Source of the DNA: Amphiura filiformis
Taxonomy: Eukaryota > Echinodermata > Ophiuroidea > Amphilepidida > Amphiuridae
Length of the DNA: 64,000 nt
NCBI RefSeq assembly: GCF_039555335.1
Contig: NC_092628.1
Coordinates: 71,081,706-71,145,705 of the forward strand
Direction of reading: 5' to 3'
Positions 11,174-46,500 of the stretch are shown piece after piece (the first letter of the stretch is position 1; the number at the start of each line of letters is the position of its first letter). Made by a program: the position numbers and the translations under genes. The notes under the pieces were generated by a model. That model worked only from the letters and a program-made list of their open reading frames with translations, did no database searches and was not told the origin of the DNA.

Positions 11174-11431
11174 TTACAAGTCCAGGCGTTTCACTGGTTT
11201 CAATGTTCGTCTTGGTCTTGCTTCTGGAGTACCTGACACTGATACAGTTTCATTGTTGGTAGCACTGGACGTAGTTTTAGGCTTGGTACTTGGGTTACCA
11301 AGTGCTGGTACTGGTGGATGAGCTGAAGTAGAATCTTTCTTCACTCCTATATCTTGATCTGGGACTTCTGATTCCAACAGCAAACACAGTTTATCAATGG
11401 GTCTGGTGAGAATGCTTGTCCTAGTTTTCAC
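11174..11431 (-). pseudogene. BEL/Pao pol C-terminal tail, frameshifted
   Basis: Continues the integrase ORF after a frameshift at about 11430. It holds VKTRTSILTRPIDKLCLLLE, the conserved end of BEL/Pao polyproteins (V-x-T...RPI-x-KL-x-LLE), then a Ser/Thr/Pro-rich tail ending at 11174. Confidence 0.75.
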
Positions 11432-15413: not shown

Positions 15414-17047
15414 GTCTGATTGGCAACTTCACCAGACTTCTTTGTCTCTTCCTGTTTCACATGCAGCACTGTTGGATGGCGCTTTTTACATGTCTTGCAG
15501 GTAAGCTTGTATTTGCAGATTTTACTGTAATGTGTTGCTTTCTTTAGGCAGCCAAAACAAACTCCCAACTCTCTTAGATACTGCAACCGGTCACTTATAG
15601 GCTTTTCCTTCAATTTGTTACACATTTCCAAAGTGTGATCTTTACCCTTGCAATATGTACACGGCTTGTCGGCTCCTGGGCTACTTGACGACACATTTAG
15701 CCTGGCTCCTGGACTATATGACATTACATTTGGTCTGGCTCCTGGGCTATTTGATGTCACACTTGCCGACACAGCTTCTGTGTTTGTTGCTAGATTTCTT
15801 CTAGCTTTATAAGTCTGATAGTTTGGGTTTTTTACCCTTTCTTCCTTCTTAGTACTATCTTCCTTCTCCGTCACACTTCTACCGTAGGCAGCATTAGTTT
15901 GCGATTCTAGCCTGTTTTTCTAAGAAGGAGGTGAAGTCTTCAAATGTTACCACTTTGTTTCTTTCTTCTTCTACATAATCTACTTGTCTCCTCCATCTGT
16001 CTCTCATACTATATGGTAACTTCATCATCAACATTCTAATGTTTGCTGTACTTTGCAACTCATTAGTATAGCCCAGGCTGGTCATGGTATTTTTGCATTC
16101 TAACAAAAATAATGACAAATCTTGTAGCCCTGAACTATCACCTTTCACATTCGCCACTGCCTCATCTTCGCTAAGTAAGCCTCTGCAATCTTGTGCTTAT
16201 TACCATATTTCCTTTCCAGCAACCTTTTTGCTTCCAGGTAACCAACCTCATCATCCATGTGAATACAACTTTTCACCAAACTGTTGGCTTCACCTCTTGT
16301 GTACTGTTCAAGATAGTACAGACGGTCTCTATTGCTTTTGCTCTTATTTTCGATTATGAATTCGAAGGCTCTTATAAACGTAACATACAAAAGCGGGTCT
16401 CCAGTAAATGTCTGTAATGTCCGCTTTGGTAAACTTGCTTGTTTATGCTGTTCGACCAGCAGCCTTGTCAAGTTGTCTTGGTTGCGTGCCAAATTTTCTA
16501 TACTGGTATCTTCTTTCACTTCTATTGGCTCGCTTTTTACATGTTGCCGTGGCAACATGACTTGTTTTTTCTTCACATCAGGCTCTGGTGACAAATTTAC
16601 TCTATGACCGTACTTTACTGATGAAGGCCCTTCATGTTCATACTGTTCACTGTACTGTTCTTGACCATACTGTTCATCAATATTTTCATATTTCATAATT
16701 TCTTGACCTTCTCTAGTGTTGTGGTTCAACCACTGCCTCACTGATGTGTTTGTATCTGGTTGAGCTTCTGTGATGTCATCAAGCACCGATTTTGGTCTAC
16801 TTCTTAAGCTCTGGGATTTATGTTCATAATCCTCCAATACATCTATTTTGGCTTGCTCTATGTTTATTTCGGTCTTCATTTCCAACCACTCTCTTTGTTG
16901 TTGCAAGTCCCTTGCCCTGGCTTGCATTTCTTGTTCCAAGTCTCTTGCCCTTGCTTGGATATTAAATTCCTCACTTTCTAAAGCTTGTTTTTCCTTCAAT
17001 GCTTTGGCTCGACATTCTAGTTCAACCTTTCGAGTTGCAGCTTGCAA
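15362..17047 (-). pseudogene. BEL/Pao Gag with coiled coil, DUF1759 and zinc knuckles, frameshifted
   Basis: Three frame segments. 16145-17047: a Glu/Arg/Gln-rich coiled coil (about residues 1-75) and the DUF1759 capsid-like region (FTGDPLLYVTFIRAFEFIIE). 15894-16157: continuation with RMLMMKLPYSMRDRW. 15362-15874: zinc knuckles CTYCKGKDHTLEMC and CFGCLKKATHYSKIC plus CKTCKKRHPTVLH. Just before the knuckles is a triple repeat with SPGA cores (NSPGARPN, YSPGARLN, SSPGAD). Single-base frameshifts separate the segments near 16150 and 15890. Confidence 0.85.
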
Positions 17048-18110
17048 TAATGCATATTCTGTACTTTTTGATAATGCATCACTTTTATAAGATCTTCTGC
17101 TTCTTAATTCGGAACTGCTTTTATGACTCGACTTGATGTTTTCGATAGTACCGAAACGAGCGAATTAATCTAAACGACGCCGATGCAAGCAACGAAGCGT
17201 AATGCGTTTCTAAAGTGAACAACGGTTCACAAATTTATGTGAGAAACTATACGTAGGACCTGTGTAAGGTGTGCTTTGTGAGGCTACATGTGTCGAAACC
17301 TGAAATAAATGCGAATGTCAGTATACACGAAACTTCGCTTGAATGCAGGCCCTACGTTGCTTACCGACGGGTGGGAGAAAGCTCGATGCACCCGCTTATT
17401 GTGTGCCGACGGGCGGGAGTAAGCTCTTTGCGTCCGTTTATTGATAACAAAATACCACAAAACTCTTTTTTAGGTAGAAGTCCTGTGTCAGTGTTGTATG
17501 ATTCTATGAGTTATTCCTGCATGCACTAGCTGTGCAACTGCAAGATTACTAATGTCAGTATTAGAGGCGTACATGCAGGCACTTTACTACCAAACTTTAT
17601 TTGAATTGTCCTAATCGACTCGCGACGGGTGGGAGTAAACTTGTTACCCCTTTATTAGATATTTATTAAAAAATACCACAAAGCTATTTTTCAGTAGTAG
17701 TCCCGTGTCAGTTTGTGCTTGTGTTGTCGTAGCGACTCGTGGGAGTGTTAGAAATGTACATGCAGGCACTACTACTGATATCTTTATTTGATTTCTACGA
17801 TTCGGATTCATAGGCCTTGATAACTTCTTTGAAGTTCTAATCTATAAGCTTCTACCAAGTGTGCATTTATCTACATGCACACTCATTAATATTTGCTATA
17901 TTCAGTGACGTCTGACATGACTGGAGGCTGTGGTGACTGTCTGTGCCAATGCAATGTTTATGTTTACACTGCTGACACGACCTTAAGCTTTTAGCTATTT
18001 TTAGGTAAGCTTACAAAACAGACGCTCAACTGAACCTTTATTTGGTAACTATTTACCAACTATAGCATCTTCTTACAGATAATTAATCTTTACAAATGTA
18101 GTTGCAATCT
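17048..18110 (-). other. Retroelement leader with degenerate internal repeats
   Basis: Non-coding between gag and the right LTR. Units beginning GACGGGTGGGAG occur at about 17367, 17410 and 17623, each followed by TTTATT; the last two also share AATACCACAAA and GTCAGT stretches about 210 bp apart. ACATGCAGGCACT recurs at about 17571 and 17759. Such a repeated 5' leader could hold regulatory or packaging repeats; function unknown. Confidence 0.55.
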
Positions 18111-22336: not shown

Positions 22337-22513
22337 GTTATCATGGCTATGCGTGACTTGGTAGACGGTGAGTGTGGGGCAGCCAACCCATTGATGAAGC
22401 TGACCCAACATTTCACTCAGGATAAGTCACTAAGGCAAGAAGGACTAGGTATTTCAAGGCCTTTGGATCCAGGATTAGCTGCTAGACAATTTGCGGAAGC
22501 ACCACAACATGAG
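22337..22513 (+). CDS. PEX5: PEX5 exon 1 (first coding exon)
   Basis: The coding part starts at ATG 22343, six bases after a good acceptor (ttcatag, 22331-22336), so at least one 5' untranslated exon lies upstream. It encodes residues 1-57, with Cys11 and the [14 protein letters not shown] block found at the start of animal PEX5. The exon ends GAG|gtaggaa in phase 0. The upstream non-coding exon was not identified with confidence. Confidence 0.93.
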
Positions 22514-25500
22514 GTAGGAATAAGGATATACAATATTGTACTTACAATTAAAGCCATATTATAACATTTGCTGAGGAGGACGCCCTCAATATTTATCAAT
22601 TTTTTGTCACAATTATATTGTACTTTATTAAACCAACATACCCTGCAAAAATCAAGACTCTAGGTGCTGTAGTTTTGTCAAAATCCAAGATTTTGATTAA
22701 AACACAGGAACCGTCGTTATATTATTTAGATGGAATTATTAGTTGAACGCATACATGATGTTCATAACACTGTACGTACAGGGCATACAGGACAGTGATC
22801 TACACAACAAAGGATCGTACCATAACACAACCAAAAGAAATGATACGTATTGGCGACATTGGCGCTGGTAGTAAATTTCAATTTTCTTTGCTTTGCCTTA
22901 GTTGTTTGGCTCAAAAATAAAAGGGGATATATCTGCCAGTAAAAGCTAACATTTTATGGCAAAGAAATGCTAATCTATTTGTATGAAAATGTTATAATAT
23001 GGCTTTAATCCGCACTGATATTACCAGGGTTGTTTTGTTTATAAATATCATTGGTTTGCTACAAAGGGAATACATGTCATGTACATCTTTGCCCAGTTAT
23101 GAATAGTTGTCAAGGTACTTTTTTATTTGTCATGATTTTACAAATTTGTCACATGCAATGGAATATACCGTTTGATTTGCAGTTAGTGAATGAGTTTCTA
23201 GCTGACCAACGCCATGCAGCGCCACCGCAGACATTTCGTATGGATGCACTCTTCCAAGAAATGCGAGAGATTGAAGCCCAATCTATGCATGCACCTATGC
23301 AAGGTAAGTTTCATGTGATGTTGGTTTCTTGTTCCACATATCCATCATCAACAAAATCTTAATGACTGCAATGTTTATAAGCAAAGATTAGCTGATCTTT
23401 GGATAAACATGATGTAACACTGTACATGAGCACTTCATTGTTTGATAGCAATTAGCATGATTACCCTTTACATATATACCTCTGGAATATTTCACCATGG
23501 ACTTGGCAAACTTTTGATTTCTTGCTATCTTCATTTAATTAATAAAGGGCACACCTTTGTGCCACTTTTACTTAGAAACCAATTATTGTTTGATTTTGGC
23601 TGTTTCCAAGAAAGCCAGAGGTACACTATGACTATTTTGATCACCATGCATGATGATCCAATATGGCAGACTGGTCATAGTTTTATACATGAGTCTATAT
23701 TATGAAGTAAGATGTCTATATAATCCCTTTTGTAGGCCCAGCAGTGGCAGACTTAGCAGCTCATCCTGACTGGGCAGCGGATTTCTTGGAAGCGGAACAG
23801 AAAAGAGCAGAGGAAATCATTGATGACAGAGACTCTGATTGGACGAAAGACTTTCTAGACAGCCAAAGCTCAGCAGGTAATTGACATTATCTTCACACAC
23901 ATGTAATTATTACTCATTGATATTTTGTGGTAGATATTAATTACAAGTAAAGTGATCTATGATTTTACACAGTATAGGTCAGTCCATTCAATTCCAAAAC
24001 TAATTGCAAAAGATAAAAACGTTTGAACTAATTTGGCACCATTGGTTTTCTTTCTTCTTGAATATTGGTTTTTGATGTAAGAGATATGGAATAACCAAAA
24101 GGCAATAAATATTTTATTTATACATATTGAAATTCAGATGAGAATACTCACAATATCATTCAAAGTACACTGATCATGTAAATTCCCCAACTTCTGTTGT
24201 TTAAAAAAAAAAAGGAAGGTTTTTATTTCAAACTCAAATGGTGACCCGCAGGTCAAATTGCTAGAATTGAACATTAAACACACCAAAACAGACACAATGC
24301 AATTTACAGGCAGCAGCTTAATCAGCGCCAATATATTGCAACATTGAAACAAACAACTATACAAACATCCAATCCAACCCAACCACATCCCCCAGTAGGC
24401 AATGAGGATAAAGTGCCTTGCCCAAGGACACAACACGTTGGCACGACCGCACGAGCGGGGCTCGAACTCACAACCTATGGATTATGAGTCGGGCGCCTTA
24501 TCCACTGGGCCACATGTGCTTTATAACAAATGTGTTTGTGACTTGTTATTTTCATCTGCAGTTGGTCCAGATATTTTGCCTGTTACAAGTGACATCAAAT
24601 GGGCTGAGGAGTACTTGGAACAGAGTGAGCACCAACAATGGTAAGCATTAGCCAGAGGTTACGTTAATATTCACAGTTCATTATTATTTCAATCATTGGC
24701 CATGTTTAAAGTTACATAGCTATTCCTACTTTCAGTGTAATTTGCCTGTTTGTTTAAATGAATGAAATTGGATAAATATCACTTCTGATTATATTGTAAC
24801 TATTTGTCCTTTCCATTATTTTTTAATTGAAGGGCTGAAGAATTCACTAAACCAGAAGATGCAAAATGGCAAGTATAAACAAAATATATGATAAAAGTAT
24901 ATAGCATTATTAAATAGATCACCAATAACTAAATCAGAGATATACAGTAATTTTTGCCAAATAATAGATTTAAATGTTGGCATCCTTAAATAAAAACCAA
25001 ACCTAATAATAATAAAATAATAACAAACCTTAGAGGTTTCACACCAATAGTTGTTTCACAAGTTCAATTCAAGGAGAAAGATAATATGTGACACGATCTG
25101 GTCCATGGGGGCCAAAGGAGGCATTTTTGAAAATTGAGTTACTGTAATTATTACATTATACATACAATAGGCTATCATTTACTGAAAACAAGTGTCTAGC
25201 ATACTTGGTTCCAAAGTGATGAAGTTTTTTGATGTCTATTTCCTTATGTATTTTATTGTTTTTTACTCCATATTTTTACCTCAATTTCAAATTTGCCGCC
25301 TTTGGCCCCATGGACTAGATCGTGTCACATATTCAAAATTATTATCCACATGGATGGTGGCAGCCTTATACTAAATATTTCAATTCTGTGACTCTTCCTT
25401 TCACAAAAATATGCTTTTGTAAGTGGCGGGTGAATAATTGAAAAGTTACAACATTCATAAATCATATCGGATGTGTGTGTTTGTTATTAATGTCGACCCT

Positions 25501-28500
25501 TTTCCTTTTCAGGGTGGATGAGTTTCAAGCCAAAGCAGAGACAGATGCTGAGTTAGCCAGGACTGCCAATCAATTACTAGGCACTCTAGATGATCCAAAG
25601 TTTGCAAACTCTGAGGTATGGAATCATATTAGAAAAACCATTACTATGTATTTGACTGAAAATTGTGTAGTGTAGTATAGTATTTGATTCATGTTAAAGG
25701 CTTAATGTACGATTTCCTTCAAATTTTAAATTTGTCATTATATACTCAAAATGCTGAAATAATACTAGTAATAATGATCGGGAATGGTTTCTGTCCATTT
25801 TGAGCTGAAATAACGAGGTAACGTGAAAGAAACACTGCTTGTTATTTTGGCCGTTTAACACGCAGTTCTATTCGCGGACATAAAGTCATAATTTCTTGAA
25901 TTATGACTTTATGTCGAACTTTGCTCTGTTTACCTACAAACACAACAAATTTGGCTGATTCCATTTAGGTGCAAGTTGCGACATGTGTAAACATTACAAA
26001 TATGCCAAAAAATCAGGTTTGAAAAAAATTAACCAAATTCATATTATAAGATCGTACATTATGACTTTAACAAAACTGTAAAAAAGGGTTAAAATTGATT
26101 AACAGATTATGAATCTTTGATCCAAATTGTATAATGGTAAAAGTTCTACCAGTTACAGCCTGGTACCAGTGTTTCATTGATTTTGGAGGTTGTAATTTTC
26201 ATTCGTTCTTTATGTTTGCTTTAAAAGTTCATGAAATTTGTGAAGAAAATTGGAGAGGGTGAAGTGAAGATAGAAGATAACCAAGTGAAGGGTGCAGATG
26301 GCAAACCAGTGGGAGCAGTAGCTGATGACTGGACACAGGAATTCTCTAAAGAACAGGTGGGTTTCTGATTTAAATGACAGATTTTTATACCTGCGCATAA
26401 TAAGGCTAAGATATAGTTTGATGTTGTGCTATTGCAATAAATGCTGCATCAATTTTGCTTTAGCAGTTGAATCAACACAAAATTCAATTTAAAAACAATT
26501 TTGGTATGTTTGGAATTTGACCCTAATTTAAATCTTATTGATGGTACCATTTCCAGCACCTGTTAATTAATGATACCACTTAATCATCATATTTCATTTG
26601 CAGCTGAAGCACATTATCAGTGTCACATAGACCACTCTTATCTATACAGACATTTGTTAGTTTTTTTTACTTGGTCCATAAAATATGACACTCACTTATC
26701 AGCAATTATTCAAATTTTTTAAAAATTTTGAGTAAATGAAGAATATGACTTCTACATGCCATGTATTAACCTTTCTCAATATACAGTTGCAACAACTCTG
26801 TTAGTAATAAACTTAATTTAAGGGTTACTGATGTCAATTAATGGTATTATAAGTCTGCCTATTTTGGACTGAGCAAAGTATATATATGTGCACATCCATA
26901 TCAAAATGATGCACTTGTCGGCTGCTACATGTGTCTCTATTTACCATAGTTAATAGAATAAATACCAGTTAACTTCAACTCATACACAAGTCACATGGTT
27001 TAGGAATGGTTTCTGTATTACTAATCCATGTGACTTGGGGATGATTTGAAGTGACATGCACTAGAGATGAGTCTTGATATTAATTTTATTCTTAGCTATT
27101 TATGTAAAAAGAGACTCATGTGACAAGTGCATCATTTTGATATGGATAATTTTATTTGTAGCTATTTATGTAAAAAGAGACTCGTGTAGCAGGTGACAAG
27201 TGCATCATTTTGATATGGATGTACACATAGATACATCCTACTGCTAGACAAAGTTAGCTTCCAAGATGTTAAGACAAACTGTACATGCTTATATAAACAG
27301 AAGTCAAAACAGGTTTTATACTCAGATGGTAAATTTAAATCAATCTAAATGCATGATTATATATAATTTATTTCCTTTAAGTACAAGCGACAGTTTGGAA
27401 ACCTCAAAGATAAGGTAATTGGTGTATGTGTATGAAGTGCAAATCCCTTGTGCCGCCCCAACAAGTTTTTCATATACCTCCGACACATTTTCTTCCACCG
27501 TCTTTGTCTCGCTCTATATTAGATATCCTTTTCTGTATTTTTTCTGTTACTCAAATATGGTTTGTGCTGAATTGTCTTTTAAGTTGGTGTACTTGTACTA
27601 CCATTATAAAGACAAGATTGACAAGAATAAGGTCAGTCTCCTCTATAACATTTGCAGAGCATTTCATTGTTATTACAATATTTGATTCCAGTTTTGAGAT
27701 GCCATTTGCAGTGTTATTTGGAACTGTACTTGCTTGAAACCCGCTGAATAGTTTACTGTTCTTGCACTTTCGTTCTTGTTTTTTGTTCAACTTCAGTTGT
27801 TGTTGTTCTTTTTCAATTTGTTTTTGTTTTGAATAGTGTGCACATTCTCTCTTTTTTTTCTTAAACGGAATCTTTATAGTTGTATTGTCTTTGTTGTTAG
27901 AAGAGTAGATAGTTGTTGAAGTAATTGTATGCAGAAAAGGGGTTGAATTTGATCATTGATCCAAACAAATTACATTTCTAAAACAAATGATTACATTAGC
28001 AAAATTGTTACATTGGGCTGGTATTTAAGGCATTTCTCTTTTATGAGGGAATAACACTATAATTTGAATCCCAATAGATTTATTTTATTGTAACTCCTTT
28101 TTTATGTCCTGTTGTGATTGCTGTGTACCATAATTGCACTTTATCCTTGTTTCTCAAATCCACCTTGCCAGAAGATACTCAGTGTTAGAAATAAGCTACA
28201 ATTTTTAAGGGTAAAAAAATGTACAGACCCTCATCACTTTTCTCAGGCCAGAACTCAAATGAGTATTTGTGACACTTTCCAAGACTCTCGACTTGTAAAA
28301 CGGGCAATGCCAATATAGCAGGGAAGTATTGGTTTTGAAGTCAGTATTGTTATGAATTCATAAGTAACAAAATTTCACGGGCCCCAGGATAGCGTATCTG
28401 GGCCTGTAGTGATTTTCACAGGCTTTTGTCCTGAGGGCTGCCTTTTTTCTAACACTGGACTTCCTGCTCTCCAGTTAGCATTGCAATTTACACATGAAAT

Positions 28501-31500
28501 GGAAGCTACATACTTTTTAATTAATCAAGTATGTTCAGAAATCCTCTTAACACAATGTTCAAATTAAAGTTTCCCCATCTCTTGACAAGAACTGTTGATT
28601 TCATAATATTTATGATGTGTCATATGCTTTTCTCACTCAATATTTCACTTCATTCCTTGAGCTATTGATATGGGTTTTTTTCTATGATTTTCCCACCCTT
28701 ATTAACTTTTGTATTTTGTAATATAATGTTTGCAACTTATTATTGTGTATTGTAGGAACTCCTATCAGACCAGTGGGCAAAAGAGTTTGCTTCAGAGAAT
28801 ACAGTACCCTCAGATTCAGAGTTCTGGGATAAATTACAGAAGTCTTGGGAGGAATTAGCCCAAGAGGATGAGGCTGGAGAGCACCCATGGCTTTCAGATT
28901 TCAACACACAATTCAAAGACCCAGTAAGTATAATCCGCGACTTACAATTTTAAGATGATACTTGTATAAGACATGCATCCTATTTAGATGGAAAACATGT
29001 TACACATTTCATCAGTAGTATTTCCTCAAAATACATTATGCTCCTCAAAGGGACCACATGTTTTTTGCATTTATTGCTCGTATTGCATATTTTGTGTTGT
29101 GCATGGAATGAATCTTCTGCATTTGCAACATGCTTAGCTACATGTACCATATACTCTAAGAATTTGATTTACTGTTGAGCCATTCTATTCAGCTAATCAG
29201 AACCCCACTTCCGTGTTTATGCTCTGCATGCTCTCAAAATGTAAACAAGTGCCATTCTTCTCTGACAAAAACTGTAGTGTTTATAGTCATTTATACCAGA
29301 ACCATGAAAAAGTAAAAATCTAGAGTTTATAATGCCATCTTTATTGAATTATCCTGACAGTAAAGTTCATCATAATCACTACATCATAACAAAGGAGCCA
29401 TGATATAATATCAAATGTTCTTCTTTACAGGAGTACAAATTTGAAGATGAGAATCCTTTGAAGGATCACCCCAATCCATTTGAGGAAGGTCTGAAGAGAT
29501 TAAAAGATGGAGATTTAGCTAATGCAGTACTATTATTTGAAGCGGAAGTACTCCAAAGGCCGGAACATATGGAGGTAAATATTTTTACTTAATCAGTTGG
29601 GGTTTGGAATTTTGTCTATTATAATGCACTTTAATTTTGAGTTATGATAAAAACATAAAAATTGAGAAACCGTATGTTTTAGTACTTTTCGTATCAACAT
29701 TTCAACACAATGATCAAAGTAATTCAAACAATTCAGCCGTATATTGCACTTCTGTATTTCTCTTTGCAAGACTAAAAGAAAATTATGTATGCCCTAAACA
29801 CAAACAGTGCAACAGATAACCCCAAAATGGCCTTTGAAAGCATAAAGGGGTAAACGTGTTAGTAGCATGTTTCCTTTTGAAGGTTACTTAGCTAGTGACA
29901 GTAGAAAGATTTTATACGACAGAGATTGAACTTCAGATTAGTTCAGGTGATAAGCATTTTGTGAATCCTTGCATTTTTCAGGCCTGGCAATACCTTGGTA
30001 CAACTCAAGCAGAAAATGAGCAGGAACAAGCAGCAATTGCAGCTCTAAGAAAGTAAGTATATCAAGCCATTCTAATGGTTTAAATTTTCTTTTTGTTTGA
30101 TTAAATAACTTTCTGTTCATCCCATATTCATCTAATGGGACAAGACCAGTAGCATCAACTTGACAATAATATATTCATGTTGAAATGATAACAGGTATGT
30201 TCAAATCTCACTGTAGTAGAGTTGTTGTGTCAAAGGTGACATAAGTCATCAAAGATATCTATGTATAAAGATCTAATAGTACAGTCAGACACCTCTTTAA
30301 TATATTACTCAAGTGCATAGTCAACACTGATATACTTAAACCACCAATGAGTTGGCCTTTGTGTTCATGTGTCTTACAATTTGTTCTCTTTTTATATCCT
30401 ACAGGTGCCTAGAAATTCAACCCGATAACCTTACAGCTCTGATGAGTCTAGCAGTTAGTTATACCAATGAATCCTTACAGAACCAAGCATTAGAAACCCT
30501 AACAGACTGGCTTGCAGCGAACCCCAAATATAAACATATAGTCAAAGAGGATAGATCACAAAACAAGATGCAACACCCCATGTCTTCATTTCTCATGAGG
30601 TGAGTTATACCAATGAATCCTTACAGAACCAAGCATTAGAAACCCTAACAGACTGGCTTGCAGCGAATCCCAAATATAAACATATAGTCAAAGAGGATAG
30701 ATCACAAAACAAGATGCAACACCCCATGTCTTCATTTCTCATGAGGTGAGTTATACCGATGAATCCTTACAGAACCAAGCATTAGAAACCCTAACAGACT
30801 GGCTTGCAGCGAACCCCAAATATAAACATATAGTCAAAGAGGATAGATCACAAAACAAGATGCAACATCCCATGTCTTCATTTCTCATGAGGTGAGTTAT
30901 ACCAATGAATCCTTACAGAACCAAGCATTAGAAACCCTAACAGACTGGCTTGCAGCGAACCCGAAATATAAACATATAGTCAAAGAGGATAGATCACAAA
31001 ACAAGATGCAACACCCCATGTCTTCATTTCTCATAAGGTGAGTTATACCAATGAATCCTTACAGAACCAAGCATTAGAAACCCTAACAGACTGGCTTGCA
31101 GCGAATCCCAAATATAAACATATAGTCAAAAAGGATAGATCACAAAACAAGATGCAACATCCCATGTCTTCGTTTCTCATGAGGTGAGTTATACCAATGA
31201 ATCCTTACAGAACCAAGCATTAGAAACCCTAACAGACTGGCTTGCAGCGAATCCCAAATATAAACATATAGTCAAAGAGGATAGATCACAAAACAAGATG
31301 CAACATCCCATGTCTTCATTTCTCATGAGGTGAGTTATACCAATGAATCCTTACAGAACCAAGCATTAGAAACCCTAACAGACTGGCTTGCAGCGAACCC
31401 CAAATATAAACATATAGTCAAAGAGGATAGATCACAAAACAAGATGCAACACCCCATGTCTTCATTTCTCATGAGGTGAGTTATACCAATGAATCCTTAC

Positions 31501-34500
31501 AGAACCAAGCATTAGAAACCCTAACAGACTGGCTTGCAGCAAACCCCAAATATAAACATATAGTCAAAGAGGATAGATCACAAAACAAGATGCAACACCC
31601 CATGTCTTCATTTCTCATGAGGTGAGTTATACCAATGAATCCTTACAGAACCAAGCATTAGAAACCCTAACAGACTGGCTTGCAGCGAACCCCAAATATA
31701 AACATATAGTCAAAGAGGATAGATCACAAAACAAGATGCAACATCCCATGTCTTCATTTCTCATGAGGTGAGTTATACCAATGAATCCTTACAGAACCAA
31801 GCATTAGAAACCCTAACAGACTGGCTTGCAGCGAACCCCAAATATAAACATATAGTCAAAGAGGATAGATCACAAAACAAGATGCAACATCCCATGTCTT
31901 CATTTCTCATGAGGTGAGTTATACCAATGAATCATTACAGAACCAAGCATTAGAAACCCTAACGGACTGGCTTGCAGCGAACCCCAAATATAAACATATA
32001 GTCAAAGAGGATAGATCACAAAACAAGATGCAACACCCCATGTCTTCATTTCTCATGAGGTGAGTTATACCAATGAATCATTACAGAACCAAGCATTAGA
32101 AACCCTAACAGACTGGCTTGCAGCGAACCCCAAATATAAACATATAGTCAAAGAGGATAGATCACAAAACAAGATGCAACACCCCATGTCTTCATTTCTC
32201 ATGAGGTGAGTTATACCAATGAGTCCTTACAGAACCAAGCATTAGAAACCCTAACAGACTGGCTTGCAGCAAACCCCAAATATAAACATATAGTCAAAGA
32301 GGATAGATCACAAAACAAGATGCAACACCCCATGTCTTCATTTCTCATGAGGTGAGTTATACCAATGAGTCCTTACAGAACCAAGCATTAGAAACCCTAA
32401 CAGACTGGCTTGCAGCAAATCCCAAATATAAACATATAGTCAAAGAGGATAGATCACAAAACAAGATGCAACACCCCATGTCTTCATTTCTCATGAGGTG
32501 AGTTATACCAATGAATCATTACAGAACCAAGCATTAGAAACCCTAACAGACTGGCTTGCAGCAAACCCCAAATATAAACATATAGTCAAAGAGGATAGAT
32601 CACAAAACAAGATGCAACATCCCATGTCTTCATTTCTCATGAGGTGAGTTATACCAATGAATCATTACAGAACCAAGCATTAGAAACCCTAACAGACTGG
32701 CTTGCAGCGAACCCCAAATATAAACATATAGTCAAAGAGGATAGATCACAAAACAAGATGCAACATCCCATGTCTTCATTTCTCATGAGGTGAGTTATAC
32801 CAATGAGTCCTTACAGAACCAAGCATTAGAAACCCTAACAGACTGGCTTGCAGCAAACCCCAAATATAAACATATAGTCAAAGAGGATAGATCACAAAAC
32901 AAGATGCAACATCCCATGTCTTCATTTCTCATGAGGTGAGTTATACCAATGAGTCCTTACAGAACCAAGCATTAGAAACCCTAACAGACTGGCTTGCAGC
33001 AAACCCCAAATATAAACATATAGTCAAAGAGGATAGATCACAAAACAAGATGCAACATCCCATGTCTTCATTTCTCATGAGGTGAGTTATACCAATGAGT
33101 CCTTACAGAACCAAGCATTAGAAACCCTAACAGACTGGCTTGCAGCAAACCCCAAATATAAACATATAGTCAAAGAGGATAGATCACAAAACAAGATGCA
33201 ACATCCCATGTCTTCATTTCTCATGAGGTGAGTTATACCAATGAGTCCTTACAGAACCAAGCATTAGAAACCCTAACAGACTGGCTTGCAGCAAACCCCA
33301 AATATAAACATATAGTCAAAGAGGATAGATCACAAAACAAGATGCAACACCCCATGTCTTCATTTCTCATGAGGTGAGTTATACCAATGAGTCCTTACAG
33401 AACCAAGCATTAGAAACCCTAACAGACTGGCTTGCAGCAAACCCCAAATATAAACATATAGTCAAAGAGGATAGATCACAAAACAAGATGCAACATCCCA
33501 TGTCTTCATTTCTCATGAGGGTGAGTTATACCAATGAGTCCTTACAGAACCAAGCATTAGAAACCCTAACAGACTGGCTTGCAGCAAACCCCAAATATAA
33601 ACATATAGTCAAAGAGGATAGATCACAAAACAAGATGCAACACCCCATGTCTTCATTTCTCATGAGGTGAGTTATACCAATGAGTCCTTACAGAACCAAG
33701 CATTAGAAACCCTAACAGACTGGCTTGCAGCGAATCCCAAATATAAACATATAGTCAAAGAGGATAGATCACAAAACAAGATGCAACACCCCATGTCTTC
33801 ATTTCTCATGAGGTGAGTTATACCAATGAATCCTTACAGAACCAAGCATTAGAAACCCTAACAGACTGGCTTGCAGCGAATCCCAAATATAAACATATAG
33901 TCAAAGAGGATAGATCACAAAACAAGATGCAACACCCCATGTCTTCATTTCTCATGAGGTGAGTTATACCAATGAGTCCTTACAGAACCAAGCATTAGAA
34001 ACCCTAACAGACTGGCTTGCAGCAAACCCCAAATATAAACATATAGTCAAAGAGGATAGATCACAAAACAAGATGCAACATCCCATGTCTTCATTTCTCA
34101 TGAGGTGAGTTATACCAATGAGTCCTTACAGAACCAAGCATTAGAAACCCTAACAGACTGGCTTGCAGCAAACCCCAAATATAAACATATAGTCAAAGAG
34201 GATAGATCACAAAACAAGATGCAACATCCCATGTCTTCATTTCTCATGAGGTGAGTTATACCAATGAATCCTTACAGAACCAAGCATTAGAAACCCTAAC
34301 AGACTGGCTTGCAGCAAACCCCAAATATAAACATATAGTCAAAGAGGATAGATCACAAAACAAGATGCAACACCCCATGTCTTCATTTCTCATGAGGTGA
34401 GTTATACCAATGAGTCCTTACAGAACCAAGCATTAGAAACCCTAACAGACTGGCTTGCAGCAAACCCCAAATATAAACATATAGTCAAAGAGGATAGATC

Positions 34501-37500
34501 ACAAAACAAGATGCAACATCCCATGTCTTCATTTCTCATGAGGTGAGTTATACCAATGAGTCCTTACAGAACCAAGCATTAGAAACCCTAACAGACTGGC
34601 TTGCAGCAAACCCCAAATATAAACATATAGTCAAAGAGGATAGATCACAAAACAAGATGCAACATCCCATGTCTTCATTTCTCATGAGGTGAGTTATACC
34701 AATGAGTCCTTACAGAACCAAGCATTAGAAACCCTAACAGACTGGCTTGCAGCAAACCCCAAATATAAACATATAGTCAAAGAGGATAGATCACAAAACA
34801 AGATGCAACACCCCATGTCTTCATTTCTCATGAGGTGAGTTATACCAATGAGTCCTTACAGAACCAAGCATTAGAAACCCTAACAGACTGGCTTGCAGCG
34901 AACCCCAAATATAAACATATAGTCAAAGAGGATAGATCACAAAACAAGATGCAACACCCCATGTCTTCATTTCTCATGAGGTGAGTTATACCAATGAGTC
35001 CTTACAGAACCAAGCATTAGAAACCCTAACAGACTGGCTTGCAGCGAACCCCAAATATAAACATATAGTCAAAGAGGATAGATCACAAAACAAGATGCAA
35101 CACCCCATGTCTTCATTTCTCATGAGGTGAGTTATACCAATGAGTCCTTACAGAACCAAGCATTAGAAACCCTAACAGACTGGCTTGCAGCGAACCCCAA
35201 ATATAAACATATAGTCAAAGAGGATAGATCACAAAACAAGATGCAACATCCCATGTCTTCATTTCTCATGAGGTGAGTTATACCAATGAGTCCTTACAGA
35301 ACCAAGCATTAGAAACCCTAACAGACTGGCTTGCAGCGAACCCCAAATATAAACATATAGTCAAAGAGGATAGATCACAAAACAAGATGCAACACCCCAT
35401 GTCTTCATTTCTCATGAGGTGAGTTATACCAATGAGTCCTTACAGAACCAAGCATTAGAAACCCTAACAGACTGGCTTGCAGCGAACCCCAAATATAAAC
35501 ATATAGTCAAAGAGGATAGATCACAAAACAAGATGCAACACCCCATGTCTTCATTTCTCATGAGGTGAGTTATACCAATGAGTCCTTACAGAACCAAGCA
35601 TTAGAAACCCTAACAGACTGGCTTGCAGCAAACCCCAAATATAAACATATAGTCAAAGAGGATAGATCACAAAACAAGATGCAACACCCCATGTCTTCAT
35701 TTCTCATGAGGTGAGTTATACCAATGAATCATTACAGAACCAAGCATTAGAAACCCTAACAGACTGGCTTGCAGCGAACCCCAAATATAAACATATAGTC
35801 AAAGAGGATAGATCACAAAACAAGATGCAACATCCCATGTCTTCATTTCTCATGAGGTGAGTTATACCAATGAATCATTACAGAACCAAGCATTAGAAAC
35901 CCTAACAGACTGGCTTGCAGCGAACCCCAAATATAAACATATAGTCAAAGAGGATAGATCACAAAACAAGATGCAACATCCCATGTCTTCATTTCTCATG
36001 AGGTGAGTTATACCAATGAATCATTACAGAACCAAGCATTAGAAACCCTAACAGACTGGCTTGCAGCAAACCCCAAATATAAACATATAGTCAAAGAGGA
36101 TAGATCACAAAACAAGATGCAACATCCCATGTCTTCATTTCTCATGAGGTGAGTTATACCAATGAGTCCTTACAGAACCAAGCATTAGAAACCCTAACAG
36201 ACTGGCTTGCAGCAAACCCCAAATATAAACATATAGTCAAAGAGGATAGATCACAAAACAAGATGCAACACCCCATGTCTTCATTTCTCATGAGGTGAGT
36301 TATACCAATGAGTCCTTACAGAACCAAGCATTAGAAACCCTAACAGACTGGCTTGCAGCAAACCCCAAATATAAACATATAGTCAAAGAGGATAGATCAC
36401 AAAACAAGATGCAACATCCCATGTCTTCATTTCTCATGAGGTGAGTTATACCAATGAATCCTTACAGAACCAAGCATTAGAAACCCTAACAGACTGGCTT
36501 GCAGCAAACCCCAAATATAAACATATAGTCAAAGAGGATAGATCACAAAACAAGATGCAACACCCCATGTCTTCATTTCTCATGAGGTGAGTTATACCAA
36601 TGAATCATTACAGAACCAAGCATTAGAAACCCTAACAGACTGGCTTGCAGCGAACCCCAAATATAAACATATAGTCAAAGAGGATAGATCACAAAACAAG
36701 ATGCAACACCCCATGTCTTCATTTCTCATGAGGTGAGTTATACCAATGAATCATTACAGAACCAAGCATTAGAAACCCTAACAGACTGGCTTGCAGCGAA
36801 CCCCAAATATAAACATATAGTCAAAGAGGATAGATCACAAAACAAGATGCAACACCCCATGTCTTCATTTCTCATGAGGTGAGTTATACCAATGAATCAT
36901 TACAGAACCAAGCATTAGAAACCCTAACAGACTGGCTTGCAGCAAACCCCAAATATAAACATATAGTCAAAGAGGATAGATCACAAAACAAGATGCAACA
37001 TCCCATGTCTTCATTTCTCATGAGGTGAGTTATACCAATGAGTCCTTACAGAACCAAGCATTAGAAACCCTAACAGACTGGCTTGCAGCGAACCCCAAAT
37101 ATAAACATATAGTCAAAGAGGATAGATCACAAAACAAGATGCAACACCCCATGTCTTCATTTCTCATGAGGTGAGTTATACCAATGAATCATTACAGAAC
37201 CAAGCATTAGAAACCCTAACAGACTGGCTTGCAGCAAACCCCAAATATAAACATATAGTCAAAGAGGATAGATCACAAAACAAGATGCAACATCCCATGT
37301 CTTCATTTCTCATGAGGTGAGTTATACCAATGAATCATTACAGAACCAAGCATTAGAAACCCTAACAGACTGGCTTGCAGCGAACCCCAAATATAAACAT
37401 ATAGTCAAAGAGGATAGATCACAAAACAAGATGCAACATCCCATGTCTTCATTTCTCATGAGGTGAGTTATACCAATGAATCATTACAGAACCAAGCATT

Positions 37501-40500
37501 AGAAACCCTAACAGACTGGCTTGCAGCAAACCCCAAATATAAACATATAGTCAAAGAGGATAGATCACAAAACAAGATGCAACATCCCATGTCTTCATTT
37601 CTCATGAGGTGAGTTATACCAATGAATCATTACAGAACCAAGCATTAGAAACCCTAACAGACTGGCTTGCAGCAAACCCCAAATATAAACATATAGTCAA
37701 AGAGGATAGATCACAAAACAAGATGCAACATCCCATGTCTTCATTTCTCATGAGGTGAGTTATACCAATGAGTCCTTACAGAACCAAGCATTAGAAACCC
37801 TAACAGACTGGCTTGCAGCAAACCCCAAATATAAACATATAGTCAAAGAGGATAGATCACAAAACAAGATGCAACATCCCATGTCTTCATTTCTCATGAG
37901 GTGAGTTATACCAATGAGTCCTTACAGAACCAAGCATTAGAAACCCTAACAGACTGGCTTGCAGCAAACCCCAAATATAAACATATAGTCAAAGAGGATA
38001 GATCACAAAACAAGATGCAACACCCCATGTCTTCATTTCTCATGAGGTGAGTTATACCAATGAGTCCTTACAGAACCAAGCATTAGAAACCCTAACAGAC
38101 TGGCTTGCAGCAAACCCCAAATATAAACATATAGTCAAAGAGGATAGATCACAAAACAAGATGCAACATCCCATGTCTTCATTTCTCATGAGGTGAGTTA
38201 TACCAATGAGTCCTTACAGAACCAAGCATTAGAAACCCTAACAGACTGGCTTGCAGCAAACCCCAAATATAAACATATAGTCAAAGAGGATAGATCACAA
38301 AACAAGATGCAACACCCCATGTCTTCATTTCTCATGAGGTGAGTTATACCAATGAGTCCTTACAGAACCAAGCATTAGAAACCCTAACAGACTGGCTTGC
38401 AGCAAATCCCAAATATAAACATATAGTCAAAGAGGATAGATCACAAAACAAGATGCAACACCCCATGTCTTCATTTCTCATGAGGTGAGTTATACCAATG
38501 AATCCTTACAGAACCAAGCATTAGAAACCCTAACAGACTGGCTTGCAGCGAATCCCAAATATAAACATATAGTCAAAGAGGATAGATCACAAAACAAGAT
38601 GCAACACCCCATGTCTTCATTTCTCATGAGGTGAGTTATACCAATGAGTCCTTACAGAACCAAGCATTAGAAACCCTAACAGACTGGCTTGCAGCGAACC
38701 CCAAATATAAACATATAGTCAAAGAGGATAGATCACAAAACAAGATGCAACATCCCATGTCTTCATTTCTCATGAGGTGAGTTATACCAATGAGTCCTTA
38801 CAGAACCAAGCATTAGAAACCCTAACAGACTGGCTTGCAGCAAACCCCAAATATAAACATATAGTCAAAGAGGATAGATCACAAAACAAGATGCAACATC
38901 CCATGTCTTCATTTCTCATGAGGTGAGTTATACCAATGAATCATTACAGAACCAAGCATTAGAAACCCTAACAGACTGGCTTGCAGCGAACCCCAAATAT
39001 AAACATATAGTCAAAGAGGATAGATCACAAAACAAGATGCAACATCCCATGTCTTCATTTCTCATGAGGTGAGTTATACCAATGAGTCCTTACAGAACCA
39101 AGCATTAGAAACCCTAACAGACTGGCTTGCAGCAAACCCCAAATATAAACATATAGTCAAAGAGGATAGATCACAAAACAAGATGCAACACCCCATGTCT
39201 TCATTTCTCATGAGGTGAGTTATACCAATGAGTCCTTACAGAACCAAGCATTAGAAACCCTAACAGACTGGCTTGCAGCGAACCCCAAATATAAACATAT
39301 AGTCAAAGAGGATAGATCACAAAACAAGATGCAACATCCCATGCAACATCCCATGTCTTCATTTCTCATGAGGTGAGTTATACCAATGAGTCCTTACAGA
39401 ACCAAGCATTAGAAACCCTAACAGACTGGCTTGCAGCAAACCCCAAATATAAACATATAGTCAAAGAGGATAGATCACAAAACAAGATGCAACACCCCAT
39501 GTCTTCATTTCTCATGAGGTGAGTTATACCAATGAGTCCTTACAGAACCAAGCATTAGAAACCCTAACAGACTGGCTTGCAGCGAACCCCAAATAGAAAC
39601 ATATAGTCAAAGAGGATAGATCACAAAACAAGATGCAACATCCCATGTCTTCATTTCTCATGAGGTGAGTTATACCAATGAGTCCTTACAGAACCAAGCA
39701 TTAGAAACCCTAACAGACTGGCTTGCAGCAAACCCCAAATATAAACATATAGTCAAAGAGGATAGATCACAAAACAAGATGCAACACCCCATGTCTTCAT
39801 TTCTCATGAGGTGAGTTATACCAATGAGTCCTTACAGAACCAAGCATTAGAAACCCTAACAGACTGGCTTGCAGCGAACCCCAAATATAAACATATAGTC
39901 AAAGAGGATAGATCACAAAACAAGATGCAACACCCCATGTCTTCATTTCTCATGAGGTGAGTTATACCAATGAGTCCTTACAGAACCAAGCATTAGAAAC
40001 CCTAACAGACTGGCTTGCAGCGAACCCCAAATATAAACATATAGTCAAAGAGGATAGATCACAAAACAAGATGCAACACCCCATGTCTTCATTTCTCATG
40101 AGGTGAGTTATACCAATGAGTCCTTACAGAACCAAGCATTAGAAACCCTAACAGACTGGCTTGCAGCGAACCCCAAATATAAACATATAGTCAAAGAGGA
40201 TAGATCACAAAACAAGATGCAACATCCCATGTCTTCATTTCTCATGAGGTGAGTTATACCAATGAGTCCTTACAGAACCAAGCATTAGAAACCCTAACAG
40301 ACTGGCTTGCAGCGAACCCCAAATATAAACATATAGTCAAAGAGGATAGATCACAAAACAAGATGCAACACCCCATGTCTTCATTTCTCATGAGGTGAGT
40401 TATACCAATGAGTCCTTACAGAACCAAGCATTAGAAACCCTAACAGACTGGCTTGCAGCGAACCCCAAATATAAACATATAGTCAAAGAGGATAGATCAC

Positions 40501-43500
40501 AAAACAAGATGCAACACCCCATGTCTTCATTTCTCATGAGGTGAGTTATACCAATGAGTCCTTACAGAACCAAGCATTAGAAACCCTAACAGACTGGCTT
40601 GCAGCAAACCCCAAATATAAACATATAGTCAAAGAGGATAGATCACAAAACAAGATGCAACACCCCATGTCTTCATTTCTCATGAGGTGAGTTATACCAA
40701 TGAATCATTACAGAACCAAGCATTAGAAACCCTAACAGACTGGCTTGCAGCGAACCCCAAATATAAACATATAGTCAAAGAGGATAGATCACAAAACAAG
40801 ATGCAACATCCCATGTCTTCATTTCTCATGAGGTGAGTTATAACAATGAGTCCTTACAGAACCAAGCATTAGAAACCCTAACAGACTGGCTTGCAGCAAA
40901 CCCCAAATATAAACATATAGTCAAAGAGGATAGATCACAAAACAAGATGCAACATCCCATGTCTTCATTTCTCATGAGGTGAGTTATACCAATGAGTCCT
41001 TACAGAACCAAGCATTAGAAACCCTAACAGACTGGCTTGCAGCAAACCCCAAATATAAACATATAGTCAAAGAGGATAGATCACAAAACAAGATGCAACA
41101 TCCCATGTCTTCATTTCTCATGAGGTGAGTTATACCAATGAGTCCTTACAGAACCAAGCATTAGAAACCCTAACAGACTGGCTTGCAGCAAACCCCAAAT
41201 ATAAACATATAGTCAAAGAGGATAGATCACAAAACAAGATGCAACACCCCATGTCTTCATTTCTCATGAGGTGAGTTATACCAATGAGTCCTTACAGAAC
41301 CAAGCATTAGAAACCCTAACAGACTGGCTTGCAGCGAACCCCAAATATAAACATATAGTCAAAGAGGATAGATCACAAAACAAGATGCAACATCCCATGT
41401 CTTCATTTCTCATGAGGTGAGTTATACCAATGAGTCCTTACAGAACCAAGCATTAGAAACCCTAACAGACTGGCTTGCAGCAAACCCCAAATATAAACAT
41501 ATAGTCAAAGAGGATAGATCACAAAACAAGATGCAACACCCCATGTCTTCATTTCTCATGAGGTGAGTTATACCAATGAGTCCTTACAGAACCAAGCATT
41601 AGAAACCCTAACAGACTGGCTTGCAGCAAACCCCAAATATAAACATATAGTCAAAGAGGATAGATCACAAAACAAGATGCAACACCCCATGTCTTCATTT
41701 CTCATGAGGTGAGTTATACCAATGAGTCCTTACAGAACCAAGCATTAGAAACCCTAACAGACTGGCTTGCAGCGAATCCCAAATATAAACATATAGTCAA
41801 AGAGGATAGATCACAAAACAAGATGCAACACCCCATGTCTTCATTTCTCATGAGGTGAGTTATACCAATGAGTCCTTACAGAACCAAGCATTAGAAACCC
41901 TAACAGACTGGCTTGCAGCAAACCCCAAATATAAACATATAGTCAAAGAGGATAGATCACAAAACAAGATGCAACACCCCATGTCTTCATTTCTCATGAG
42001 GTGAGTTATTATACAAATATTAAACCTCTGAAGTTATGCAAGTGAATTATGACACAGAATCATACATCGTAAAATGTTGGTCTGGACAATAAAACACAGG
42101 TCACTTCCCTTGTCTTAAAGCTTGAGAAACCTTTAATGTAGAATGCCAGTAAAAACATTTTTAGTACATAATTCCTCAGTAGATATGTATTATAAATTTA
42201 TGCTTATCTTTTTTTCTGTGGAGGCAGGAGAAATGCCAATTACACACAGACCTACAAATAAAAAAATACACCAAAAATTGGTATCCATCATGATCGTGAT
42301 CATGGACATGACTGTTACAGACTGCCTCATCTGATTGCAATTATGTTGACTTAAAATGGTCTGATCTGTTGCTTAATGCAATGAAAAGTCTTCAAACTAT
42401 AAATGCAGGGGTAGATTTTGCTATACGATAAGGCACATTGTAAACTATCATGATGCACCATTGTAACTTATAATCAGGGACAGGCGATTTGCGCGGAACT
42501 TTTTTTCCGCGCAATTGGCTATTTTTTTCCTATGGGCAGGGATACATCATTTGCACTGAAAAAAGAGTTCCGCGCAATTTGCTATTTTTTTTCGCGCAAA
42601 TCGCCTGTCCCTGCTTATAATTGATCGAAGAGTTTGCAGCCAATGTGTATCACACATTGGAGATTTGTAACTGTGTTCCATTGTTAAATGAGAAAAGATG
42701 CATGACAGTGACTGCAAATATTTACCTGTGAGTACCAAGCAACATTCAATGAGCAAACTGCATACAGCTTCATATGTTACTCACTTGTAATATGAATGAA
42801 CTGTGCAAAATTGATGCCTGTTCATTTTAATTGAATCCAGTGTCACATTTGGAACAGACAGTCTTTTTAGTTAACATAAACAGGCAGATAAACAGTCATT
42901 TTGATACAAATTATATGATGGCAGTAATTATGTATTTGGAGAACAATTTCATAGAGGCTTTCGTGTAAGTAAGACAGGCGTAGTGGTTATTTTGTTTATT
43001 TAATTGTGACATTGTATTTCCAGTGGTCTTCACAAGGATGTACATGACATGTTCATTGAGGCAGCAAGGGCATCACCATCTGAATTAGATGCTGAAATAC
43101 AGTGTGGTCTTGGAGTCATATTTAATTTATCTCAGGAGTATGACAAAGCTGTTGATTGCTTCAAAACTGCATTACAAGCAAGACCACAGGTAAGCCAGAA
43201 AGAGAGACAGAGAGTGGCATAGGAGAGGTTCTGGGTATAATTGTTCTGAATTCCAAAGAGATCCACTTGACCGTATGTACTTTGGGCTCGAACATGCAAA
43301 CAATTTATTTCCCCCTCTCCCCATCCCTGGTTGCTATGCCAGTGGAGAGGATAGTCACATGATGATGATTCGTCTTCTTCGGCATTGTCTTTTGAGCTTG
43401 TTCAAAATGATATTGGTCTTAAAATTTAGGCCACATGCATGTATACACTGACTGGTTAAGGCAAATATACCAATGGTCACTATGTCAACCCAAACTCTTA

Positions 43501-46500
43501 GTTTAAAAAACTGCTCTTATGGTGTACTAGTGTAAAGACTATAGCATGCTTAATTAAAATAATTTAAAACAAAATAGGCATGATTCAAGTGAACAACACT
43601 TGCCAAAGTTAATTCTATGCTCAAACACATATATACATAAATTTCAAATTATTTGTACCCAAAATGCATGTTTGCCATCAAGAATATATTTGATTAATGT
43701 TTCTGTCATTTGATGACAAATCACAGAGCAGCCAATCAGTGCCACAACATAGTTATTCACTACATACTTTTGAAGCTCACATATCTGGTAAAAGTAATGT
43801 GCCAGCAAATTGTCCTACAGATACCTCAATAATCATATTTGCTCCATCCAGGATGCTCTTCTGTGGAATAAATTAGGTGCTACATTGGCCAATGGTAATC
43901 GGAGTGAAGAAGCTATAGATGCATATCATCATGCCTTACAACTATCACCAGGATTCATCAGGTCTAGGTACAACCTAGGAATTAGCTGTATTAATCTTGG
44001 TGCACATAAGTGAGTATTACATTACCTGTAACTGTATGTTATCATAAAGACTTGAAAGGCTTTGAAATACGTAGTGCTGAATTGGGATCTTACAATGTGT
44101 AGGAACATCTGATCAGGTTTTGAATATAACTTTCTGTCATTTTGCCCAAAAGACACCATCCTGTGATTTTCAGTGTCACCCTTTCCCATTATTATTCTTT
44201 CACTTATGATAAATAGATATATTCCGACCTGAATGATGTTAAAAACGAAGTTATGGGCATGTGTCACTTTGACTTTTGATCACCCAGAAGTTTGATTTAT
44301 CAAGCCTTGACATCAATTAAATCAGACTTAAAAATAATCAAGTGTTTATGTGAAAGGTTGACTTTAAGTATTGCCAGAAGAAACATATACTTGATTTACA
44401 TTTGTTGTTACCAGTGAATAGTTATGCTATCATAAAGGTATTTGTCAATAATGCCTACAATTTGCATCTTGCAAGTCTTTGTGAAATCACACATTTATAT
44501 CACCCAATCATTTATATCTCCTTGTGAGCACTGAGTAGCGAGTCATTATACTTTTTTACCGTATTCGATATCATTTACTCACTCTCATAATTGGAGAACT
44601 CATTTAGCGTTCAAACAAGTGTATTGTTGTGCACCTAATGTTTTGGAGTTTTTATTGGGGGAGGGAGGTATCGGGGCAGAAGGATTTATAACTGGGGGGC
44701 ACAAAATGTTACATTCAATTTGAATCAACAGAAAGAAGAAACTATATTTTGTTAACTCTTTGAAGTGTTTCATAAATGTTTTAATCTTTATTTGTCATTT
44801 TGGAGACCAACACCACTGCCAACTACAAGTTCCACATTCATAAAACTTCATTTCATTTTCTTTACATCTGGACCTCGGGTCTGAATTCTATCTTGCAAAT
44901 GTTTATGTTAGTTTTTGTGTCCATGTCACATTATCTTCACTGCCAGTTTAATACCTACTTTCTAAATGTATCTTGGTGAGACATTCTTTTTAATGTAGTT
45001 TCAAAGTTTGCAGACCGAATTCACACGTGTGATTTCACACCATTCATTCTGAGATCAATTGTTTCCATTTCCATATAGGGAAGCAGTGGAGCATTTTCTC
45101 ACATCTCTCAACATGCAGAAAAGAGGTCTAGGTCCACAGGGCAGCCATTCCACTATGTCAAACAGCATCTGGAAAACAATGACTCTCACGCTCTCCTTCT
45201 TAAGCCGTGATGATCTCTATAAGGTTGCAGAGAATAAAGATCTTGATAGGTTGAATAAGGAGTTCCATGTTGATACGTGACTAGGAACTACATCACATGT
45301 ATGCATTTGTTTTATATGGCATTGTAGGATCCCAGGTATGCCATGCTGGGATTGAGACTACATTGCTTGTGTGGAAAGGATGATGCAGATGCAACCTTGA
45401 AAGATGAATTATTTCAGAGAGGAGTCTTGATCAGAATGTTTTTACTATTGGAGTCAGCATTAAAATGGCTGCAAATGTGCCTATATTTATTTTATGATAG
45501 TGTATCTTATTCAAGTTGGTGATGGAGTGCTATTGAAATAACATGTTCTTAAAAAAAATAATATCTTGTACAGTCAGTCTACTCCGAAGTACAAAGTACA
45601 GACCCGGACGCACACATTGTGCCGACTTTGATGGCACGCATGCCTGCAGCACTGCGCACTGTTTACGCGCGCGTTGTCACTTGTGTACTTCAGAGTGGAC
45701 AAACTGTAGTCAAAATGTAAAGTGTATTCACATGGTGCTTGACTGTAATTGAAATTGACTGAGGAATTGTCCAGGGGAAATATGTGAATGTTTTAATGGA
45801 CAAAATATTTGGCACTTAAATTCAACTCTTACTCACCAACTTGGAACTTGTTTTGGTGCTGTGGACTGTGTGGCTTGGAATTCTATTGGATTGGATAATG
45901 AATTCTCTGTTGACCATCTCCATTGGTATCTCCATTGGTAAATGATTTAGAGAGCCAATACTGGATGCAAAGTTTCATTAATGGTTTGGCTATACGTCAA
46001 CCTGCAGTTCATCCATGAATGATCTCTGAGTAATTTACTTTGTGACATGTTAACCAATATCAGTGATAATGCACTGTATGCAGATGTTTTGGATTTGCCA
46101 GGTGGCAGTTACGAATTAACAAGAATGGTCAATTTAAAGAAAGCATGTATGTTGTTACTTTGGCTCACATCTCTATTTCATCTGTCTCTTTTTCAAGGCA
46201 CCATTTACCACTGATGCACATTTCTCAACACATATCTTGTAGTCATAGATAGAACAACAGTGTGTTATTGTACTGCCATAATGTAATCATCTTGATCTCA
46301 GAGTAACCTGCTATCTTCTTTCATGCACTTGTCTACTTCATGAGTTTTTGGAATGTTGAGAGTGATGAAAGATTGAGACCTGACCAAATGGATTTTGCTC
46401 TCTTATCTCCCTACTTCCTACAGAGAAGCCATTGAGCACTTCCTGAACTCACTAAACATGCAGAGACGAGGATTAGGACCACAAGGAGAGAGTTCGACCA

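Follow-up and report, generated by a model that had tools for sequence, protein, structure and literature searches.

In the PEX5 gene (PTS1 receptor) of Amphiura filiformis, the 3' part of one coding exon is repeated head to tail together with its splice donor, and the locus raises the question of how such an array arose and how the gene accommodates it. The whole stretch of DNA analysed, 64,000 nucleotides in length, is referred to here as the window; it likely derives from the published A. filiformis assembly and has a G+C content of 36.8% by letter counts, in agreement with the published genome value of 36.67% (PMC11310086). The array is real as a feature of the assembly, its copy number being provisional. 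We propose, with a probability of roughly 0.7, that it is a donor-bearing intronic minisatellite (VNTR) that was born from a coding exon and is tolerated because the first donor suffices. This kind of feature is already known; what is new is the large, mostly coding unit, together with an exon that seems to share one pool of variants with 78 intronic copies.

The PEX5 gene and the structure of the array

A 14-exon model of the coding region translates to 627 aa and is identical to the public A. filiformis protein P0001 at every residue, and the naming of the gene as PEX5 in the initial annotation stands. A 13-exon model matched P0001 at 98% identity over the full query length in the protein search; the gap corresponded to a 36-nt microexon with a GC donor, and addition of the microexon gave the exact match. 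In this search, which covered the best 120 of 2064 matches with 7993 candidates scored, P0002-P0008 from sea stars, sea urchins and a sea cucumber were 61-70% identical to the model at 100% query coverage, and crinoid proteins were 54-59% identical; among these best 120 matches P0001 was the sole one named as A. filiformis, and those without a name were at most 61% identical. Besides the full-length orthologue match, TPR families were found in Pfam, while NCBIfam gave TPR matches that were all below cut-off, because NCBIfam models prokaryotes. A 4-exon translation was also matched to solved PTS1 receptors in the PDB (best 2.5e-82, for a 192-aa piece). The exon carrying the repeat, previously called exon 12, is coding exon 11 of 14; it would be exon 12 if one 5' UTR exon precedes the coding exons, a possibility suggested by an acceptor-like AG that lies 6 nt before the ATG.

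Tandem Repeats Finder (TRF), run with periods up to 500, reported the array as one row at 30457-42009 (period 146, 79.0 copies, 98% matches, score 22030), and none of the 13 other TRF rows in the window exceeded 3.6 copies. When the 79 head-to-tail copies were placed unit by unit, with the final copy set at 146 bp in agreement with TRF, their lengths were 146 bp in 77 copies, 147 bp in one and 158 bp in one, and the 78 copy spacings were 146 bp (76 spacings), 147 bp and 158 bp. The earlier description of a 79-fold, homogeneous, satellite-like array formed in place, given as 78 x 146 bp with two further indels of 1 bp and 12 bp, agrees with this count (the indels lie in copies 21 and 61), and its coordinates agree as well, the last donor starting at 42001. 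Its claim of an amplified exon holds for the exon sequence and not for the whole exon: 142 of the 195 nt of exon 11 are repeated with 4 intron nt, i.e., 97% of the unit is coding exon, whereas the acceptor and the 53 nt that follow it occur once. The units do end with donors as had been stated, but the exactness of that end is partly a choice of register, as the breakpoint floats within AGTTAT. The flanking intron is normal as claimed, since intron 11 minus the 78 extra copies measures 1,023 bp, compared with 192-2,414 bp for the remaining 12 introns of the model. Coordinates are collected in Table 1.

Table 1. Features of the PEX5 locus, in window coordinates (a slash marks the exon end at a donor)
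Feature	Position	Strand	Basis or remark
PEX5 coding region	22343..46625	+	14 exons; translation equals P0001 (627 aa)
PEX5 36-nt microexon with GC donor	24833-24868	+	present in P0001
PEX5 coding exon 11, 195 nt; final 142 nt are array copy 1	30405..30599	+	required for exact P0001 match
AGTTAT, exonic arm of 6-bp microhomology at duplication junction	30457..30462	+	junction comparison
Tandem array, 79 copies of 146-bp unit (142 nt PEX5 exon plus intron nt 1-4, GTGA; register GTTATACC...GAGGTGA from 30458)	30457..42009	+	TRF and unit by unit
First donor GAG/GTGAGT, demanded by P0001 protein	30600..30605	+	model; read-through gives TGA and a 453-aa product
Copy 21, 147 bp, extra G before donor	33378..33524	+	unit by unit
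Copies 30-37, unit-type order same as copies 64-71	34693..35860	+	run of 8; 0/1000 shuffles reach it
Copy 61, 158 bp, 12-bp internal duplication	39219..39376	+	unit by unit; TRF row 39329-39355
Copies 64-71, second instance of 8-unit run, 34 units downstream	39669..40836	+	run comparison
Last donor GTGAGT, then unrepeated intron; presumed ancestral exon-intron junction	42001..42006	+	sequence
AGTTAT, intronic arm of microhomology, overlaps last donor	42004..42009	+	junction comparison
Remainder of intron 11, unrepeated, ends with acceptor TTTCCAG before exon 12	42010..43023	+	sequence and model
PEX5 coding exon 12, spliced onto exon 11 in P0001	43024..43189	+	model compared with P0001

A blastn comparison of two units with the window, after masking of exon 11 and the array, gave nothing better than a match of 20 nt (E 0.63), and the window contains no tRNA and no structured RNA at Rfam gathering scores. 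Nucleosome-like phasing was considered for copy 2 and set aside: its AA/TT/TA periodicity at 10.43 bp is no higher than in shuffled sequence (268/500 shuffles reach it). In the intron beyond the array, at 42468-42620, there is a hairpin-like inverted repeat with 31-nt arms that are 94% complementary and a 91-nt gap, which resembles a small foldback element.

Splice donors and reading frame

The array adjoins the exon end, and GTGAGT is kept in 79/79 unit donors; the contexts are GAG/GTGAGT in 77 units, AAG/ in one and AGG/ in one (copy 21, with the extra G). GAG/GTGAGT scored 11.45, rank 2 of the 13 donors of PEX5, with an approximate donor matrix. Because the repeated segment is the 3' part of an exon without its acceptor, 78 of the 79 copies can be regarded as intron and not as extra exons; judged by the protein, copy 1 would be coding and the others intronic. 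Exon 11 retains its own acceptor and the first donor; splicing from there to exon 12 would yield the annotated protein, and the remaining 78 copies would be removed inside a 12.4-kb intron. The gene would still work on account of this acceptor and of a first donor that is among the strongest of the gene, and with a lone acceptor pairing with the first donor, the extra copies would become inert intron, free to multiply. The acceptor in use, at 43023, lies outside the repeat, so that the intron would have been lengthened, not created. The locus offers an unusually clean natural test of how the spliceosome chooses among 79 near-identical donors.

Read-through past the first donor gives M-R-stop. 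The unit length breaks the frame (146 = 2 mod 3), 212-222 stops per frame are distributed over the array in the six frames, and open stretches without a stop reach at most 113 aa on the plus strand, because of the 147-bp copy 21, and 57 aa on the minus strand. The extra G in copy 21, which may be an assembly error, fuses two units in frame and creates a 113-residue stop-to-stop frame at 33329-33670. A translated multi-repeat (TPR) protein was ruled out in the coding frame by the TGA at the junction and the stops across the array, and a protein search for the array junction returned no candidate, a result that is uninformative because a frame so short is rarely predicted. At the AG sites of copy 2 (read into copy 3), the pyrimidine fraction over the preceding 18 nt ranges from 0.28 to 0.72 with the maximum at the donor's own AG; we judge these AG sites to be weak acceptors, although an acceptor-like site is not wholly absent from the unit because the donor's own AG follows the 0.72-pyrimidine stretch.

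Junction, proposed growth and variation of the copies

Since both ends of the repeated segment share AGTTAT, the breakpoint can be placed anywhere within this hexamer, 3-9 nt into the intron; when 200,000 junctions were drawn at random from the surrounding sequence, 0.25% shared at least 6 bp. We suggest that AGTTAT past the exon 11 donor was joined back to the exonic AGTTAT by a tandem duplication, which would have copied 142 exon nt with the donor and left the acceptor behind. The doubled segment could then have expanded to 79 copies via unequal exchange or slippage between copies, a step to which the similarity of neighbours, one repeated 8-unit run and the mixed variant combinations described below point. 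Spliced or circular RNA as the template was set aside as every unit contains at least 3 intron nt; an unspliced RNA could still have served. Coding sequence can apparently seed a minisatellite without evident harm, given that the acceptor is left out.

The mean pairwise difference among the 77 copies of 146 bp is 1.5%. Thirteen substitutions were found among the copies, five of them shared by 9-38 copies (the minor or alternative letter is present in 30, 16, 38, 9 and 37 of 79 copies) and eight private, i.e., seen once. The shared variants are all at third positions and synonymous (5/5), compared with an expected synonymous share of 79/414 (19%) for all changes and 44/138 (32%) for transitions; the chance of such an outcome is about 0.0003-0.003 in a test made post hoc. 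The private substitutions comprise three synonymous changes, four missense changes and one stop, and the comparison of 5/5 with 3/8 synonymous (Fisher 0.04; 0.02 if both indels are treated as non-synonymous) is supportive only. Five of the eight private substitutions fall in copies 1-5 (binomial P 5e-5, with the boundary set post hoc), an apparent edge decay on which no weight is placed because all eight may be assembly errors. At the published assembly error rate of 6.8e-4, 7.9 errors are expected in the array compared with the eight private substitutions seen, so no private change is trustworthy; dating of the array by private changes was dropped as their density equals that rate.

Copy 1, the coding one, shares the alleles of the pool, matching copy 7 exactly and the others at 98.6% identity on average. 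All four allele combinations occur at 8 of the 10 pairs of shared sites, and the relation of linkage to distance is not clean (r2 of 0.42 for sites 14/17 vs 0.05 for the equally close 62/65). Neighbouring copies differ at 1.49 shared sites compared with 2.02 by chance, and 0/5000 shuffles were as alike. The recurrence at a shift of 34 units listed in Table 1 is not a clean segmental duplication because only 14/45 unit pairs agree at that shift, eight in the run and 6/37 outside it. We read the pattern of variation as growth of the array in place through exchange between copies, unlike random error. The coding copy would either join a common variant pool or all copies would have been seeded from standing exon alleles, and only protein-harmless variants would have become common in either case; the synonymous pool may reflect exchange between the working copy and the array combined with selection, or several standing alleles as seed in a species whose heterozygosity is 3.22%. 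The fuller version of the former, in which the coding exon evolves in concert with the 78 intronic copies, sequence passes both ways, purifying selection acts on the working copy and thereby screens the whole array, and the array is a store of protein-neutral variants that rewrites an essential gene, is tentative and we regard it as rather doubtful. The locus also lends itself to asking if a satellite-like array can be kept in check by selection that acts on a single copy.

Known systems and alternative explanations

The initial annotation knew of no described case, which fails for the kind of feature in view of the ABCA7 VNTR, AGGT-bearing units in fission yeast and a minisatellite known from a title of 1995. 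The 1995 paper, by its title, concerns a minisatellite offering multiple splice donor sites, reportedly in gene 6-16/IFI6 and reportedly with short units in tens of copies; the PEX5 array is like it, by that title, in that tandem units offer several donors in one transcript. In the coding exon VNTR of LPA kringle IV-2, each unit is a translated exon with an acceptor and a donor of its own. Both LPA and PEX5 have exon sequence in a long homogenised array inside one gene, whereas the PEX5 unit is without an acceptor and does not keep the frame.

The closest known system is the VNTR in intron 18 of human ABCA7, in which the first two letters of a 25-bp unit are those of the exon 18 donor and alleles reach about 427 copies, or 10,678 bp; retention of one unit occurs and does not change with length, while skipping of exon 19 rises with VNTR length (PMC5954066). 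Both arrays start at the donor of a coding exon, include that donor in the unit and are kilobases long. The ABCA7 unit is intronic, whereas that of PEX5 is 146 bp and mostly exon, and ABCA7 length varies and tracks exon 19 skipping, whereas the PEX5 array is known here from one assembly as DNA only. In fission-yeast genes, exonic 24-bp units that contain AGGT occur in a few tandem copies, two or four of which are spanned by an intron, and under the Rogers model introns are gained by tandem duplication of AGGT-bearing exon segments (PMC4974935). As in that model, internal tandem duplication would have converted exon sequence to intron with the protein unchanged; unlike it, the PEX5 intron would have been lengthened, the repeat supplies no acceptor, the copies are far more numerous and the unit spans exon and donor. 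In a search of the open PMC literature, mostly at the level of search listings, no array came up in which a unit made chiefly of coding sequence is present in tens of copies.

It is improbable that the genome holds few copies and that the assembler or polishing inflated their number or invented their order. The published assembly was built with Flye from nanopore R9.4.1 reads and polished with nanopore and short reads, with the error rate given above and a heterozygosity of 3.22% for the species (PMC11310086), and near-identical units are hard to place from such data; polishing may have homogenised or shuffled copies. Errors would, however, ignore codon phase, and an artefact is an unlikely source of the whole array because the shared variants are codon-phased and the similarity of neighbours is ordered beyond 5000 shuffles. 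Copies 1-12 also differ from the rest in their alleles at sites 14 (P 2e-6) and 62 (P 0.001) and not at 17 (1.0), 65 (0.13) or 119 (0.76), the cut at 12 being post hoc. Assemblers collapse such arrays more often than they inflate them.

The array might instead tune the dose of PEX5 by its length, some transcripts using inner donors or skipping exon 12, meeting a stop (for inner donors the TGA at the first junction) and being degraded. The gene does present 79 strong donors instead of one, and ABCA7 shows occasional retention of one unit, out of frame, and length-dependent exon skipping (PMC5954066, as above); yet among the best 120 of 2064 matches the entry named A. filiformis is the normal form, and the lengths are 564-683 aa with no form of ~453 aa, though this length was within the searched range. 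That absence weighs weakly because forms lost to decay would not reach the databases and some entries are nameless; dose regulation is unlikely in our estimate. By analogy with ABCA7, some loss of PEX5 transcript with array length is plausible. Least of all do we expect RNA or protein to make use of the copies, whether as a repeated TPR segment, as steps in recursive splicing or as an array that binds U1. The copies end in a T-rich stretch and GAG/GTGAGT, and splicing from donor 1 to that point would recreate the same donor; the 0.72-pyrimidine stretch of copy 2 and the absence of AATAAA from 30404-42060 (the one visible ATTAAA there lies past the array at about 42016) are in favour of such use. 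The stops described above rule out translation of the copies in the coding frame, GAG makes a poor acceptor, and recursive splicing would not show in the mRNA. We take the donor-bearing minisatellite to be for the most part a passenger that the gene tolerates, at the price of a small loss of transcript to inner donors, and its copy number is expected to vary between animals.

Elsewhere in the window, Pao/BEL-type retrotransposon sequence extends over several frames at 11428-17164 on the minus strand (Peptidase_A17, integrase zinc-binding and DUF5641 above cut-off; RVT_1 and DUF1759 below), and non-LTR retrotransposon sequence lies in several frames at 1085-4880 on the plus strand, where the two frames that were compared with protein families matched endonuclease and reverse transcriptase. 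PEX5 itself has two intact tandem last coding exons, 45079-45280 and 46424-46625, in which 44/67 codons (stop counted) encode the same amino acid (dN 0.28). P0001 uses the second; the first, which by eye departs at several residues listed as invariant, could be an alternative last exon.
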